Origin: a virus
Reading direction: 5' to 3' (one strand)
DNA length: 20,427 bases
IMG/VR virus record: IMGVR_UViG_3300044613_003869
Coordinates: 1-20,427 of that record
Shown here: in pieces, positions 594 to 10,621 of the stretch
Layout of the letters: each line of letters opens with the position of its first letter
Numbering within the stretch: the first letter of the stretch is position 1
The notes under the pieces: generated by a model
What the model was told of the DNA's origin: nothing
Databases searched by the model: none
What the model saw: the letters and a program-made list of their open reading frames with translations, nothing else
Made by a program: the position numbers and the translations under genes

Positions 594-615
594 ATTATAG
601 CCGATAGCACCGACA
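594..615 (-). promoter_or_regulatory. Leftward promoter A (TGTCGGTG-N8-TATAAT)
   Basis: The minus strand reads TGTCGGTG, CTATCGGC, TATAAT; predicted start is near 587, upstream of the 68-aa gene. Its 22 bases match copy B (1068-1089) at all but two positions. Confidence 0.7.
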
Positions 616-699
616 TTTTTCTACTTACTAGCCAGTAATTCCAAATAATGAGACGCTCAAGCCGTGTGTTCTTAATCACATCAAAATGTCCGATTTGTC

Positions 700-717
700 T
701 GTCAAATCGACACGCCG
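700..717 (+). repeat. 18-mer iteron copy 1 (TGTCAAATCGACACGCCG)
   Basis: Identical to the copy at 1707-1724; the copy at 782-799 differs at two positions (AT to GC in the middle). Confidence 0.75.
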
Positions 718-781
718 CAGAATTCAGGGTTTTTTATAACAATGTCGTAACGACACGCCCGACGCCGCAGCTCTGCGGGCT

Positions 782-799
782 TGTCAAGCCGACACGCCG
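782..799 (+). repeat. 18-mer iteron copy 2
   Basis: TGTCAAGCCGACACGCCG, two substitutions from copies 1 and 3, embedded in overlapping inverted repeats. Confidence 0.7.
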
Positions 800-808
800 T
801 TGTGTCGG

Positions 809-824
809 TGTGAATTACCTCACA
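809..824. repeat. Palindrome P1, TGTGA-ATTACC-TCACA
   Basis: A perfect 5+5 inverted repeat with a 6-nt centre, just beyond the stop codon of the 71-aa gene. The form is that of a CRP/FNR-type operator. Related copies are at 1744-1759, 2455-2470 and 3006-3021. Confidence 0.6.
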
Positions 825-827
825 ATT

Positions 828-1043
828 TCAGTAATCTGAAATTCTGACCGCAACTGTTGCCCATTCATCAGTGAATGAACCTGTTGGGCGATAGCGAATT
901 GAAAACGCTTCATAACCTTCAGGCGGATAAACATTTTCACGCTTTTCCGCAAAGTTAATTATTCCGCCATTAAATCGGCGGCGCATTGACGTTGGTGAAT
1001 AGTATTGATCCACCAATAAATCTACAATAGAATAACCTCTCAT
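828..1043 (-). CDS. 71-aa protein, paralogue of the 68-aa protein at 353-559
   Basis: Function unknown. It shares the scattered motif set of the 68-aa protein (YSI-x-x-LLV, RRRFNGGII, AEKRENV, YEAFSI, EWATVAVRI), so the two came from one ancestor by duplication inside the phage. The ATG at 1043 overlaps the TGA of the upstream 37-aa gene (ATGA), and an AAAGGGGA ribosome site precedes it. This is the last gene of a four-gene leftward unit that begins at 1483. Palindrome P1 lies directly after its stop. Confidence 0.75.
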   Translation of the reverse strand: MRGYSIVDLLVDQYYSPTSMRRRFNGGIINFAEKRENVYPPEGYEAFSIRYRPTGSFTDEWATVAVRISDY

Positions 1044-1154: not shown

Positions 1155-1298
1155 TTAGTTTTTCTCCTTAGTAGGTAGAGCGAATAAATATTTTAGCAGA
1201 GCCTTGCGCTCATAAGTAGTTAATTCTGGGTGATTAGAAATCACGCCACCATTTTGGTATTCCCAAACAATTTTATTAAAAGTTTTTTCGGATAACAT
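1155..1298 (-). CDS. 47-aa hypothetical protein
   Basis: The ATG at 1298 overlaps by one base (TAATG) the stop of the 61-aa gene; the frame ends at 1155, two bases before the 37-aa gene starts. The product begins MLSEKTFNKIVWEYQNGGVI and ends Lys-rich (LPTKEKN). It has no Cys cluster or membrane segment. Translational coupling in a TAATG chain is the main evidence that it is real. Confidence 0.6.
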   Translation of the reverse strand: MLSEKTFNKIVWEYQNGGVISNHPELTTYERKALLKYLFALPTKEKN

Positions 1299-1483
1299 TA
1301 CATCACCCAACTTTCTTGAGTGTATGCTAACCACTCACCAAGGGTCATTAAACCCTTGTATTCATTACAATTTCCGCAAAACATTTCGCTTGCGTAGTCT
1401 GAGCAAAAAGCGCAGACAATTAAATTCGCTTCATCAGCGCTTACATTTTCGAGAGTAATCTCTCGGATACTTAGTGTAGTCAT
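1298..1483 (-). CDS. 61-aa zinc-ribbon-like protein
   Basis: Residues 24-27 (CAFC) and 36-39 (CGNC) form two CxxC knuckles 8 residues apart, the layout of a small treble-clef or ribbon zinc site. The N terminus has beta-like alternation (LSIREITLENV), and the C terminus has an aromatic stretch (GEWLAYTQESW). Such proteins in phages may bind nucleic acid or host enzymes, but no family is recognised. ATG 1483 has an AAAGGTGG ribosome site. It is the first gene of the unit 1483-828, downstream of promoter D (1538-1559) and next to the origin-like patch. Confidence 0.75.
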   Translation of the reverse strand: MTTLSIREITLENVSADEANLIVCAFCSDYASEMFCGNCNEYKGLMTLGEWLAYTQESWVM

Positions 1484-1537: not shown

Positions 1538-1559
1538 ATCCTACCATAGACCACTGACA
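1538..1559 (-). promoter_or_regulatory. Leftward promoter D (TGTCAGTG-N8-TAGGAT)
   Basis: The minus strand reads GTCAAA (-35-like), then TGTCAGTG, 8 nt, TAGGAT, with 17 nt between the two hexamers. It precedes the 61-aa gene unit. Confidence 0.6.
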
Positions 1560-1675
1560 TTTTGACCCCTTTTTCGGGCGTGTCGGAAAACTATTTTTGT
1601 GATTTAGGTCATGTGGATAACTTACGCTCAAAATTTGAGGGTTATCCACACCTGTTCATAAAGCTGTGGATAACT

Positions 1676-1693
1676 CCCGCAAGTACTTGCGGG
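1676..1693. repeat. Perfect palindrome CCCGCAAGTACTTGCGGG
   Basis: Eighteen bases, fully self-complementary and able to form a GC-capped hairpin. It lies 2 bp from a DnaA box. No U-tract follows on either strand, so a terminator role is unlikely. Confidence 0.7.
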
Positions 1694-1706
1694 CCGATCT
1701 GACAAT

Positions 1707-1724
1707 TGTCAAATCGACACGCCG
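1707..1724 (+). repeat. 18-mer iteron copy 3
   Basis: Identical to 700-717 (TGTCAAATCGACACGCCG); its left end overlaps the palindrome TGACAATTGTCA. Confidence 0.75.
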
Positions 1725-1728
1725 ATAA

Positions 1729-1857
1729 TTAGCGCAAATCTTTTGTGAGTTCTCTCACATCTTCTTTTAGCATTGGCCACGCCATACGCCATAAGGATAC
1801 GACGGAAACTAGTAGGGCTAATTGGACGGCGGTAGTTAGTAAGCGATTAGTAGTCAT
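1729..1857 (-). CDS. 42-aa single-span membrane protein
   Basis: The protein starts MTTNRLLTTAVQLALLVSVV. Residues 5-28 form one hydrophobic helix, followed by a charged tail rich in Lys, Glu, Asp and Arg (about residues 31-42). The ATG at 1857 is joined by TAATG to the preceding 51-aa gene, which also encodes a membrane protein. No family is recognised. Small phage membrane proteins next to replication regions may act in superinfection exclusion or membrane attachment, but this is speculation. The palindrome TGTGA-N6-TCACA (1744-1759) is inside its coding sequence. Confidence 0.6.
   Translation of the reverse strand: MTTNRLLTTAVQLALLVSVVSLWRMAWPMLKEDVRELTKDLR
1744..1759. repeat. Palindrome P2, TGTGA-GTTCTC-TCACA
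   Basis: A perfect 5+5 inverted repeat matching the intergenic copies, but lying inside the 42-aa gene, so it may have arisen by chance or be an intragenic operator. Confidence 0.45.
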
Positions 1858-2404: not shown

Positions 2405-2426
2405 AGACTACACTAAGGCGATGACA
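2405..2426 (-). promoter_or_regulatory. Leftward promoter E (TTGAAA, TGTCATCG-N8-TAGTCT)
   Basis: The minus strand has TTGAAA, a 17-nt spacer beginning ATGTCATCG, and TAGTCT. It is the fifth member of the leftward family and precedes the 54-aa gene. Confidence 0.55.
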
Positions 2427-2454
2427 TTTTCAACCTTAGCGGGGGTGTGTCGTG

Positions 2455-2470
2455 TGTGAGTTACCTCACA
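2455..2470. repeat. Palindrome P3, TGTGAG-TTAC-CTCACA
   Basis: A perfect inverted repeat (6+6 arms) overlapping the stop codon of the 50-aa gene. It is nearly identical to P1 at 809-824, which also sits at a gene's 3' end. Confidence 0.6.
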
Positions 2471-2935: not shown

Positions 2936-2957
2936 ATCTTAGCAGGGGGGACTGACA
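2936..2957 (-). promoter_or_regulatory. Leftward promoter F (TTGATA, TGTCAGTC-N8-TAAGAT)
   Basis: The minus strand has TTGATA, an 18-nt spacer containing TGTCAGTC, and TAAGAT. It faces left toward the 70-aa gene and lies in the divergent region between the leftward and rightward arms. Confidence 0.6.
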
Positions 2958-3005
2958 AATATCAAGTCGCAATTCGGACATGTCGGACAATTTGAAAAAA
3001 AAGTG

Positions 3006-3021
3006 TGTGAGTTAAGCCACA
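3006..3021. repeat. Palindrome P4, TGTGA-GTTAAG-CCACA
   Basis: One mismatch from the P1/P3 consensus. It sits in the divergent control region (2958-3120), where I see no gene. Confidence 0.45.
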
Positions 3022-3275: not shown

Positions 3276-3430
3276 TGGTTTGTGGGGGCTTACACTGAAA
3301 CTCATAATGACGGAAATGTGTAGCTTCTCTATCTTACATAATTGTTTTTAAATTATGGGGGGTAGGGGGGCTTTCCTAAAATCTAAAAATCTGGAAATGT
3401 AAGTAAAAGAATATATAACATATATATCTT
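3276..3430 (+). ncRNA. Possible untranslated RNA or long leader
   Basis: The transcript from the 3240-3269 promoter would hold a stem GCTTACAC/GTGTAGC (about 3289-3323, one bulge), a hairpin CATAATT-N7-AATTATG (3337-3357), and two G-runs (3357-3370). It has only a 14-codon frame (3307-3351). The 3' end is not defined and no U-tract terminator is seen. It could also be an unusually long leader. Confidence 0.3.
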
Positions 3431-3432
3431 AG

Positions 3433-3461
3433 TTGACTAGAATATAGATAGAGTATACAAT
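3433..3461 (+). promoter_or_regulatory. Rightward leaderless promoter (TTGACT-N17-TACAAT)
   Basis: The -10 box at 3456-3461 lies exactly 6 nt before ATG 3468. Confidence 0.65.
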
Positions 3462-3467
3462 AAAACA

Positions 3468-3575
3468 ATGGCATCAACTCGATTAGTGAAATGTGATAAA
3501 TGTGGGCGGGAGATAGAAGTAAGATCTGGATTTGCCCATATGACACTAATGAATCATCAAAAGATATGTAAGTGA
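3468..3575 (+). CDS. 35-aa zinc-finger-like microprotein, leaderless
   Basis: The protein has CDKC at residues 9-12, then His24, His30 and Cys34 toward the end (MNHQKICK), a spacing compatible with a C2H2/C2HC zinc finger: CxxC, then His-x3-Cys. It is basic, so nucleic-acid binding is plausible. There is no ribosome site; instead TACAAT is 6 nt before the ATG, so a leaderless mRNA is predicted. It is one of three Cys-pair microproteins within 600 bp on this strand. Confidence 0.65.
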   Translation: MASTRLVKCDKCGREIEVRSGFAHMTLMNHQKICK

Positions 3576-4104: not shown

Positions 4105-4386
4105 ATGAAGTCTGAAAAGCTCTCTATAGCCAAGCAGAAGGCTTATTTGGCATCATATATCAGAGATCTTAAAGAAAAATCCCCTTGTAGAGACTGTGGG
4201 AAGTTTTTCCCATATTATGTCATGGATTTTGACCACGTCCGTGGCAAGAAGCATGCAAATGTAATGGAACTTATTCCCACATTGTCTAAAAAGAAGATAG
4301 ATGAAGAAATAGCTAAATGTGAGATAGTATGCTCTAATTGTCATCGTATTAGGACTCATATGAGAAGGATTAATAAAATTAAATAG
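4105..4386 (+). CDS. HNH endonuclease, short form (93 aa)
   Basis: A small HNH/ENDO-VII-like nuclease. Cys28-x2-Cys31 and Cys76-x2-Cys79 form the structural zinc site; the catalytic core is DFDHVRGKK (His44) and CSNCHRIR (Asn78, His80). Phage HNH proteins cut DNA and often behave as homing or free-standing endonucleases. It is a paralogue of the second HNH gene at 4654, sharing the PYY-[VM]-[ML]-D-x-DH motif and EIAKCE-[IV]-VC-x-NCHRIRT. Compared with that copy it lacks the N-terminal helix-turn-helix. It sits just upstream of the tRNAs, a common site for such mobile nucleases. An ATG with good upstream signal is lacking (see 4063-4103). Confidence 0.85.
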   Translation: MKSEKLSIAKQKAYLASYIRDLKEKSPCRDCGKFFPYYVMDFDHVRGKKHANVMELIPTLSKKKIDEEIAKCEIVCSNCHRIRTHMRRINKIK

Positions 4387-4402
4387 GGTCTTCTCTTCCC
4401 GC

Positions 4403-4439
4403 CGCACTTTTTTCGGACGCACTTTTCATTTCGCACTTT
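4403..4439 (+). repeat. Three direct repeats of CGCACTTT before the tRNAs
   Basis: CGCACTTT occurs at 4403-4410, 4418-4425 and 4432-4439, spaced 15 and 14 nt, just upstream of a TATACT/TATAAT pair (4446-4457). Possibly a regulator site for the tRNA transcript. Confidence 0.5.
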
Positions 4440-4460
4440 ATTTAGTATACTTATAATTAT

Positions 4461-4533
4461 TGACCCATAGCTCAGATGGTAGAGCGTCGAACTGTTAATT
4501 CGAATGTCCCAGGATCGAGGCCTGGTGGGTCAG
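4461..4533 (+). tRNA. tRNA-Asn (GTT)
   Basis: A full cloverleaf of 73 nt. The acceptor TGACCCA/TGGGTCA is fully paired, the D-stem is GCTC/GAGC, the anticodon stem is TCGAA/TTCGA with loop CTGTTAA (anticodon GTT), and the T-stem is CCAGG/CCTGG. The T-loop reads ATCGAGG where TTCRANN is usual, so the normal T54 is A. CCA is not encoded. Confidence 0.9.
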
Positions 4534-4537
4534 CAAT

Positions 4538-4611
4538 GCGGATGTTGCATATCGGTAGTGCCTCTGCCTTCCAAGCAGAAGGGGTGAGTTCAATTCTCAT
4601 CATCCGCTCCA
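4538..4611 (+). tRNA. tRNA-Gly (TCC), CCA encoded
   Basis: Acceptor GCGGATG/CATCCGC, anticodon stem TCTGC/GCAGA with loop CTTCCAA (anticodon TCC, reading GGA), and a T-loop TTCAATT. Discriminator T and CCA are encoded at 4608-4611. It lies 4 nt after tRNA-Asn, so one transcript is likely. Confidence 0.92.
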
Positions 4612-4618
4612 GTTACTA

Positions 4619-4647
4619 TTGACATGATTCGATCCATTTTGTATAAT
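4619..4647 (+). promoter_or_regulatory. Consensus leaderless promoter TTGACA-N17-TATAAT
   Basis: Both hexamers are perfect with 17-nt spacing, and TATAAT ends 6 nt before the ATG at 4654. This fixes the start of HNH gene 2 at 4654 rather than the in-frame ATG at 4624, which would lie within the promoter. Confidence 0.85.
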
Positions 4648-4653
4648 CGAACC

Positions 4654-5049
4654 ATGAGACACAAAGAAGATATTATTAGGCTTAGGTCTGAGGGCAAAAC
4701 TTATAATCAAATAGTAGAAATACTAGGGTGCTCTAAAGGCACCATCGCTTATCATTTAAGCGAAAGCGTTAAGGTTAACTACAATACTCGTAGAAGAAGC
4801 TATAGAAGAGTTATTGATAAGCATATTAGAGAGTATAAAGAATCCTTTGGCTGCACAGATTGTGGAGAAAAATATCCATACTATATGCTTGATCTAGATC
4901 ACATCTCAGATGATAAAGATTTTAGTGTTTCTGCTTACAGGAATCATACTCAAGATATTGAAATAATAAAAGCAGAGATTGCTAAGTGTGAAGTAGTTTG
5001 TGCAAATTGTCATAGAATAAGAACTTATCAAAGATCTGGTAGAGAATAA
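4654..5049 (+). CDS. HNH endonuclease with N-terminal helix-turn-helix (131 aa), leaderless
   Basis: Residues 1-38 form a helix-turn-helix (LRSEGKTYNQIVEILGCSKG, then TIAYHL) like those of resolvases or sigma-like regulators; residues 45-65 are a basic linker. The HNH core has Cys67-x2-Cys70, LDLDHI (His83), and Cys116-Ala-Asn118-Cys119-His120-Arg. The HTH probably gives DNA-site specificity, as known for other phage HNH proteins. It is a paralogue of the 93-aa HNH at 4105 but has gained the HTH (or the other lost it). It is flanked by tRNA-Gly and tRNA-Arg, the layout expected of a homing nuclease inserted in a tRNA cluster. The start is set by the perfect promoter at 4619-4647. Confidence 0.88.
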   Translation: MRHKEDIIRLRSEGKTYNQIVEILGCSKGTIAYHLSESVKVNYNTRRRSYRRVIDKHIREYKESFGCTDCGEKYPYYMLDLDHISDDKDFSVSAYRNHTQDIEIIKAEIAKCEVVCANCHRIRTYQRSGRE

Positions 5050-5056
5050 AAATTAA

Positions 5057-5129
5057 CCCTTCGTAGCTCAGAGGATAGAGCGAGGCTCTTCTAAGGCCTG
5101 CGTCACACGTTCGAATCGTGTCGAGGGGG
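5057..5129 (+). tRNA. tRNA-Arg (TCT)
   Basis: 73 nt: acceptor CCCTTCG/CGAGGGG (one T-G pair), D-stem GCTC/GAGC, anticodon stem AGGCT/GGCCT with loop CTTCTAA (anticodon TCT, reading AGA), T-stem ACACG/CGTGT with loop TTCGAAT. CCA is not encoded. It ends 6 bp from the stop of the convergent glycosyltransferase gene. Confidence 0.92.
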
Positions 5130-5134
5130 CAAGA

Positions 5135-8686: not shown

Positions 8687-10621
8687 ATGTCAAAAACTAT
8701 TGCTAACCCATACGAAAACTTCATAGCTCTATCTCGATACGCAAGATGGATTCCAGAAGAAGGTCGTCGTGAAACTTGGGGCGAAACAGTAGATCGATAT
8801 TTTGATTTTATGCTAGGCCACCTAGAAAAGAATCATGGATACAAACCATCAGGCAAGCTTGTTGAAGAATTAAAAGAAGCAGTATTTAATAGAAACGTTA
8901 TGCCTTCAATGAGATCTGTAATGACTTCAGGCGCAGCTTTGGAAAGAGATAACGTAGCAGGATACAATTGTTCATTTGTTCCAGTAGATAATCCAAGATC
9001 ATTTGATGAGACTATGTATATCCTTATGTGCGGTACGGGTGTTGGATTCTCTGTTGAATATAAGTATGTAAATAAACTTCCTTCTGTTCCAGAATCTTTA
9101 GAAAAATCAGATACAGTAATTGTTGTTGAAGATTCAAAGCAAGGATGGGCTAAAGCATACCGTGAACTTCTAGCCTTGCTATGGACAGGACATATTCCAG
9201 CAATTGATGTAAGCAAGGTTCGCCCAGCGGGTGCACGTCTTAAGACGATGGGCGGGCGTTCATCTGGACCACAACCGCTTGTTAATCTTTTTGACTTTAC
9301 AATTGCAAAGTTTAAGAATGCAGTAGGTCGTCAACTAAAACCTATTGAAGCACATGATATTATGTGCAAAATTGGTGAAGTAGTTGTAGTAGGTGGAGTA
9401 AGACGCTCTGCCATGATTTCTCTTTCTAATATTAATGATATTGAAATGGCGGCAGCAAAGTCTGGTAACTGGTGGGAAAATAATACTCAACGTGCACTTT
9501 CAAATAACTCTGTGGCATACTCTCGTAAGCCAGCAATGGAGCAATTTATAGCAGAATGGAAAAATTTATATGACTCAAAGTCTGGTGAACGTGGAATCTA
9601 CAACGTTGCAGCAGCACAAGCGCAAGCAGCTAAATATGGACGAAGGGATCCTGAGATACACTATGGAACAAACCCTTGCTCAGAAATTATTTTGCGTCCT
9701 TATCAGTTTTGTAACCTTTCAGAAGTCGTATTACGTGAAAAAGATACAAATGAGGATGTTGCAAATAAAGTACGCCTTGCAACGATTCTTGGAACATGGC
9801 AGTCAACCCTAACAGATTTTAAATATCTTCGTAAAATTTGGAAAGACAACACAGAGGAGGAAAGGCTGCTTGGCGTTTCTTTAACTGGCCAGTTTGGCCA
9901 CAAATTCTTTTCTGGAAAGCAAGGACTTGATAAACTAGAAAAAGTTCTTTCTAGTCTTCGTGAGTATGCTCGTGAAATGAATAAAGAAGAGGCTGGGAAA
10001 ATTGGGATTCCTGAGTCTGCAGCTATTACATGCGTAAAGCCTTCTGGAACAGTATCTCAATTGGTCGGGGTATCTTCAGGAATGCATCCATGGCATTCAC
10101 CGTATTATATTCGTACAGTTCGTGGCTCAAAGGGAGATCCAATCTCTACATTTTTGAAGGAAGTAGGAATTCCAGTAGAAGATGATGTAATGAAGCCAAA
10201 CGACACATACGTATTCTCATTTCCAGTTAAGGCGCCAGAGGGTGCAATTGTTAGAAATGATCTAACAGCCCTGGATCATTTAAACACATGGCTAGTTTAT
10301 CAACGTGCATGGTGTGAGCATAAGCCATCTATTACTGTTTCTGTAAAAGAAGACGAATGGATGGAGGTTGGAGCTTGGGTATACAAGCATTTTGATGAGG
10401 TATCTGGAATTTCATTCTTACCTCACTCTGACCATACATATAAGCAAGCCCCGTATCAAGAAGTAACTAAGGAAGAATATGATTCCCTACTCGCACAGAT
10501 GCCTAAGTCTATTCGTTGGGAAGATTTATCATTTTATGAAACAGAAGACGGAACTTCTACAAACGCCACCCTTGCCTGTACATCTGATGGAAATTGTGAG
10601 ATTGTAGACATTTCTGCATAA
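8687..10621 (+). CDS. nrdJ: Class II (adenosylcobalamin-dependent) ribonucleotide reductase
   Basis: Reduces ribonucleotides (probably triphosphates) to deoxyribonucleotides using adenosylcobalamin, so no separate radical subunit is needed. The start YARWIPEEGRRETW (18-31) matches the N terminus of the monomeric Lactobacillus-type triphosphate reductase. Active-site residues are visible: Cys95, Asn329-Pro-Cys331-Ser-Glu333 (radical Cys and Glu), Cys342 (11 residues on, as in that family), a phosphate-binding PSGTVS (452-457), and the C-terminal redox pair Cys631/Cys637. At 644 aa it is shorter than the about 739-aa reference. SD GGAGAAAAGG precedes ATG 8687. Typical phage supply of dNTPs during replication; the host must provide or import B12. 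Confidence 0.93.
   Translation: MSKTIANPYENFIALSRYARWIPEEGRRETWGETVDRYFDFMLGHLEKNHGYKPSGKLVEELKEAVFNRNVMPSMRSVMTSGAALERDNVAGYNCSFVPVDNPRSFDETMYILMCGTGVGFSVEYKYVNKLPSVPESLEKSDTVIVVEDSKQGWAKAYRELLALLWTGHIPAIDVSKVRPAGARLKTMGGRSSGPQPLVNLFDFTIAKFKNAVGRQLKPIEAHDIMCKIGEVVVVGGVRRSAMISLSNINDIEMAAAKSGNWWENNTQRALSNNSVAYSRKPAMEQFIAEWKNLYDSKSGERGIYNVAAAQAQAAKYGRRDPEIHYGTNPCSEIILRPYQFCNLSEVVLREKDTNEDVANKVRLATILGTWQSTLTDFKYLRKIWKDNTEEERLLGVSLTGQFGHKFFSGKQGLDKLEKVLSSLREYAREMNKEEAGKIGIPESAAITCVKPSGTVSQLVGVSSGMHPWHSPYYIRTVRGSKGDPISTFLKEVGIPVEDDVMKPNDTYVFSFPVKAPEGAIVRNDLTALDHLNTWLVYQRAWCEHKPSITVSVKEDEWMEVGAWVYKHFDEVSGISFLPHSDHTYKQAPYQEVTKEEYDSLLAQMPKSIRWEDLSFYETEDGTSTNATLACTSDGNCEIVDISA

Follow-up and report, generated by a model that had tools for sequence, protein, structure and literature searches.

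Promoters under DnaA control have been described in E. coli, where nrdA and mioC (PMC11317965, PMC5835720), and also dnaA, carry consensus DnaA boxes at the promoter. At ori-lambda, host DnaA stimulates transcription from a phage promoter, according to a title cited in PMC8203912. In Actinobacteria, GlxR/CRP promoters such as that of C. glutamicum ldhA have TGTGA-N6-TCACA upstream of the promoter, and the GlxR of Corynebacterium that binds this sequence is able to activate (PMC7999487). Both kinds of promoter, the DnaA-controlled (one in lambda included) and the GlxR/CRP-activated, are therefore already known. Repeated regulatory elements also precede many small genes in cluster K mycobacteriophages, namely SAS, a 13-mer at start codons, and ESAS, an inverted repeat of 17 bp. 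The passages of PMC3203893 that describe them mention neither DnaA nor CRP sites, and it is by this description only that we set them apart from the module reported here.

The locus studied here lies in a viral DNA stretch of 20,427 bp, hereafter the window, in which three DnaA boxes occupy a gap between small leftward genes (Table 1). The array is probably a module of transcriptional punctuation that responds to host factors: host DnaA and a protein of the Crp/GlxR family would act upstream of a leftward promoter, so that DnaA would influence a phage promoter as it does in lambda. Unlike the E. coli and lambda systems, it is a repeated cassette that precedes several operons and keeps a set distance between its boxes and a CRP-type site. 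Its boxes are 21–24 bp apart rather than the 2–3 bp of E. coli DnaA-regulated promoters, and in contrast to GlxR/CRP promoters it has TGTCRG in place of a −35 element and DnaA boxes adjoining the CRP-type site. A literature search, with most subscription journals outside its reach, found no repeated phage cassette joining DnaA boxes and a CRP site at fixed spacing, and no mapped promoters for phages of abundant freshwater actinobacteria.

Table 1. Features of the DnaA-box array and of further modules in the window
Feature	Position	Strand	Remarks
DnaA box 1	1665-1673	-	Exact TTATCCACA; first after the hairpin, reading leftward; kept in homologous modules
DnaA box 2	1642-1650	+	Exact TTATCCACA; orientation opposite to the promoter; some homologous modules have TTTTCCACA here
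DnaA box 3	1612-1620	-	Exact TTATCCACA; 2-bp overlap with the degenerate CRP-like site
18-bp palindrome CCCGCAAGTACTTGCGGG	1676-1693		GC hairpin immediately before box 1
Second inverted repeat GATCTGACAATTGTCAAATC	1696-1715		Upstream of the hairpin
Iteron TGTCAAATCGACACGCCG	1707-1724	+	From repeat search
Iteron core CGACACGCC, inverted copy	1577-1585	-	
CRP/GlxR-type site CATGACCTAAATCACA	1598-1613	-	Degenerate: two mismatches, both in the left half
Leftward promoter TGTCAG-N10-TAGGAT	1542-1563	-	Extended -10 (TGG); (nearly) identical in other contigs with the array
First gene downstream of the module	1298-1483	-	61 aa, Cys-rich
Gene upstream of the module	1729-1857	-	42-aa leftward ORF
Second module	594-827	-	No DnaA boxes; ahead of ORF 353-559; promoter 594-615
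CRP-type sites of the second module	809-824 (perfect), 665-680	-	With iterons 700/743/782
Third module	2406-2470	-	Perfect CRP-type site 2455-2470; weaker promoter match 2406-2427; ahead of ORF 2197-2361
Fourth module	2936-3021	-	One-mismatch CRP-type site 3006-3021; ahead of ORF 2615-2827
Promoter of the fourth module, TGTCAG-N10-TAAGAT	2936-2957	-	

As the preliminary description had reported, the three boxes lie within 62 bp with one opposite to the other two (strands −, + and −); they are the only exact occurrences of TTATCCACA in the whole window, each extends to GTTATCCACA, and the gaps between them are 21 and 14 bp. Their number exceeds chance. Under a second-order Markov model, 0.05 boxes are expected in the first 3.5 kb, where three boxes occurred in none of 300 controls, and 0.38 in the whole window, where three occurred in 3 of 300 controls with clustering not required.

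The identity of the 9-mer as a DnaA box is well supported by comparison with relatives, in which the 9-mer is nearly invariant and its commonest variant is another strong DnaA box. The 157 distinct 110-bp regions taken upstream of CRP-type sites contain 59 exact boxes in all (permuted 9-mers: mean 0.14, maximum 3), and TTTTCCACA accounts for 12 of the 20 single-mismatch variants. In measured DnaA affinities TTATCCACA ranks top, C at position five is much the best among TTTT-type boxes, and TTTTCCACA is a strong box like TTATCCACA (PMC5835720). Spacing points the other way: E. coli DnaA prefers gaps of 2–3 bp in vivo (PMC11317965), so the wider gaps of the window count against easy DnaA binding. 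The 2–3 bp double-box arrangement is absent from the window, and some distant relatives have such double boxes adjoining CRP-type sites. Pairs in the modules are mostly direct and 21 bp apart, or inverted and 23–24 bp apart. Dense exact boxes had been considered unusual, but box clusters are not rare in viral contigs, and the same box order recurs in at least 119 IMG/VR stretches.

The surrounding gap was also described correctly, as no convincing gene was found in 1484–1728 between the two flanking leftward ORFs, and both the 18-bp palindrome and the iteron are present. The iteron recurs at 700 (100%) and 782 (89%), with an additional copy at 743 (78%), and there are five CGACACGCC cores in the first 3 kb of the window. 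The palindrome is a probable terminator of the upstream gene. Searches of Pfam and PHROG with the product of the downstream ORF gave zero matches. Read leftward, the array module consists of the GC hairpin, the DnaA boxes, the degenerate CRP/GlxR-type site, a GACACGCC element and the promoter.

Similar elements recur throughout the first 3 kb of the window, which is made up of small leftward genes and repeated elements. Perfect TGTGA-N6-TCACA sites, unnoticed in the preliminary description, start at 809, 1744 and 2455 (expected 0.02 per 3.5 kb), and one-mismatch sites at 665 and 3006; since the site at 1744 is within the ORF upstream of the array, a regulatory role may not apply to it. Leftward promoter-like TGTC(A/G)G-N10-TAnnnT strings are found at 187, 594, 1068, 1542 and 2936; a further, weaker match is at 2406. 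The promoters at 187–208, 594–615, 1068–1089, 1542–1563 and 2936–2957 have no −35 element. Common to them are TGTCRG, at about −28 to −23, and an extended −10, and they resemble activator-dependent phage promoters. There is also an alternative module type in which DnaA boxes are absent and a GGCGTGTCGTTACGACATTGTTATAAAA-like sequence fills the slot after the hairpin (window 700–830; contigs L132, L135 and L147).

Relatives gathered via ribonucleotide reductase place the array in a wider pattern. Related phages, several of them with WhiB genes, have at least two DnaA-box sets, 1–3 kb apart and in intergenic sites, and most sets belong to one repeated cassette preceding leftward small-gene operons. 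Its order is a GC hairpin, a DnaA-box pair, TGTGA-N6-TCACA, sometimes GACACGCC, and TGTCRG-N10-TAnnnT. Two near-complete relatives, G001 (109 kb) and G004 (113 kb), have two or three promoter modules each with box pairs at fixed spacing beside CRP-type sites: in their leftward block every box pair starts 28–29 and 49–53 bp from a perfect CRP-type site, except for a terminator pair at the end of the block. Each of these genomes contains seven perfect CRP-type sites, all inside the leftward block, where 0.05 are expected. The parts of the module, their order, spacing, conservation and repetition can thus be read directly from the sequences compared.

The promoter half of the cassette follows a regular grammar. 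Across 194 distinct modules from 90 loci, distances from the CRP centre to the −10 peak at 42, 52, 62, 72–73 and 83 bp, a period of 10.25–10.5 bp (vector strength 0.68), or about one helical turn. The scan imposed a range of distances and not a phase, and because the modules are related by descent their counts are not independent and we give no formal p-value. The promoter consensus comprises an A/T run, TGTCAG, TGn as an extended −10, and TAtaaT. The search itself required TGTCRG and the outer −10 letters; the A/T run and the extended −10 emerged without being prescribed. A Crp/GlxR-activated promoter should have TGTGA-N6-TCACA on its upstream side and a helical phase between site and promoter; the site is perfect in other modules of the window and in relatives, and the phasing is seen across modules. 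A DnaA-regulated promoter should have boxes at conserved upstream positions, and these are present as well. A minor off-phase class at 57–58 bp includes the window's own array module (about 58 bp to the −10), and this phase, together with its degenerate CRP-like site, counts against our reading of the array.

Box 3 is found in the window's subgroup of modules and is missing from other homologous modules. Homologous modules in L126, L280 and L350 that are without it have a perfect CRP-type site, so DnaA may partly replace Crp in the window's subgroup. More distant modules of the same subgroup retain boxes 1 and 3 (one as TTATTCACA), with TTTTCCACA as the only change at box 2. About three-quarters of the collected modules are without a DnaA box, which makes DnaA unnecessary for this promoter type in general.

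Taken together, the patch would be the control region of one leftward operon, in a block whose small genes are presumably early. It would also be one of the copies of a promoter module that freshwater actinobacterial phages appear to use repeatedly. The GC hairpin would end the transcript of the upstream gene. A Crp/GlxR-family protein, presumably of the host, would bind as a helically phased upstream activator, and host DnaA would bind as an upstream co-regulator and/or as a road-block insulating the promoter from the upstream gene; we considered activation, repression and road-blocking as possible effects of DnaA on the operon. The promoter itself would rely on its extended −10, with the TGTCRG element in place of a normal −35.

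The hairpin bears on how the boxes work. In most modules it immediately precedes the first box, with box 1 starting 0–2 nt after it. Its stems in other modules differ in sequence and are still complementary, suggesting a further role of the module in ending the transcript from upstream. DnaA on boxes that follow a hairpin lacking a U-tract might stop RNA polymerase, the boxes then serving to punctuate operons and not to regulate the next promoter. DnaA road-blocking of RNA polymerase is described in E. coli (PMC11317965), and a U-tract terminator with a double DnaA box fused to it marks the block end in G001, G004 and L331. We nevertheless consider this reading unlikely, as it explains neither the fixed spacing of boxes to CRP-type sites nor why box 3 abuts the CRP-like site in modules of the window's subgroup. 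We also rejected the proposal that the DnaA pair generally forms one RNA hairpin, since direct repeats 21 bp apart make up many of the pairs and TTTTCCACA breaks a base pair.

Titration of DnaA and origin activity are minor rivals. In E. coli, datA titrates DnaA with boxes outside the origin (PMC5835720), and the boxes of many phage copies could likewise draw DnaA off the host origin and halt host replication. G001 has 8 boxes where 1.85 are expected and G003 has 9, but such an excess amounts to a few boxes per genome, and a sponge would work without a set distance to the CRP-type sites and promoters to which the phage boxes, unlike those of datA, are tied; this function is improbable.

The origin role put forward in the preliminary description, with host DnaA opening the phage DNA here for helicase loading, fares no better. 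The three exact boxes, palindrome and iterons within a short non-coding gap, and the strong conservation of the array, are in its favor, and a cluster of consensus boxes is what a DnaA-dependent origin should have. Such an origin should also be a single site per replicon at a skew switch, yet a phage of this group has box sets in several modules, each set tied to a promoter. As the window is a 20-kb fragment, GC skew was read on G001 and G004, where it tracks gene direction and shows no switch of its own at the arrays. Since the boxes sit in a repeated terminator–promoter cassette, they most likely serve transcription control by host DnaA and a CRP-type protein, and we hold it doubtful that they mark a single origin.

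A better candidate for an origin or terminator lies elsewhere. A double DnaA box with a 2–3 bp gap is fused to a U-tract terminator at four loci (L253, L246, L331 and L291), of which L253 is at about 28.1 kb of G001 and L246 at about 11.3 kb of G004, both at the convergent end of the leftward block. In these two genomes the double box is followed by repeats with TTTACGA and AATCCCTGAAATTTG. The site (G001, G004 and L331) is non-coding, has no perfect CRP-type site nearby and is outside the window's reach. G004 also encodes DnaB-, DnaG-, DnaE- and RecA-like proteins, so the phage may initiate replication by its own means.

That another phage or host protein sharing the DnaA-box sequence binds the 9-mer is very improbable: the box spacing is unlike the E. 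coli double-box type, but the 9-mer is near-invariant, its main tolerated variant is also well bound by DnaA, and no DnaA_C-like phage protein was found in 15 related contigs.

The same 15 contigs, of uncertain completeness, gave no HTH_Crp_2 domain, and seven related contigs, likewise of uncertain completeness, no sigma-70 region 2. Because the large relatives are without recognisable DnaA or Crp, the binders are presumably host proteins. The phage infects a freshwater actinobacterium, placed at phylum level only. WhiB, which is restricted to Actinobacteria (PMC10202952), is encoded in five of the 15 contigs, and the nearest isolate-phage homologues of the window's ribonucleotide reductase (phrog_367, 8687–10621) are from Streptomyces phages, at 66% identity. 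A reductase of this type is very common among related viral contigs. Host calling by this gene gave five matches in unrelated MAG bins and was unusable. In INPHARED, megablast returned zero relatives of the window, and a search with module DNA gave weak, chance-like matches only.

More tentatively, the leftward block could be wired to two host status signals, DnaA and a cAMP-type Crp/GlxR protein, through a repeated composite promoter; it is likewise conceivable that this promoter holds a DnaA-box pair, a CRP site and a TGTCRG/extended −10 promoter in register. If so, the phages would sense host replication and metabolism through a standard cassette, and DnaA occupancy would couple the phage programme to the replication state of the host and might in addition divert DnaA from its origin. 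The promoter grammar (hairpin, DnaA pair, CRP site, TGTCRG-N10-TAnnnT) could then be used to annotate leftward operons in contigs of uncultured phages; few isolates exist for phages of abundant freshwater actinobacteria. The modules would also offer a natural series of arrangements for testing DnaA boxes outside origins.

The 62-bp array is identical in five contigs (the window, L004, L014, L087 and L118) whose flanking genes differ. Positions 1515–1699 are nearly invariant across the five, and the adjoining genes are diverged or missing, the downstream gene being replaced in L004 and L118. Recent recombination could account for part of this near-identity. At the CRP-type site at 665–680, the half-sites are largely kept across contigs and the spacer is variable. 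Comparison of window positions 1155–1483 with L004 and L118 shows that genes between conserved modules have been swapped or are absent, as though recombination joined gene cassettes at the modules.

An Rfam search of the window found tRNAs only. Three tRNA genes (Asn, Gly and Arg) are interleaved at 4105–5130 with two HNH-like ORFs, below the Pfam cut-off, that are possible homing endonucleases. A rightward promoter-like TTGACT-N17-TACAAT at 3430–3475, which ends near an ATG, is of a type unlike the leftward promoters.
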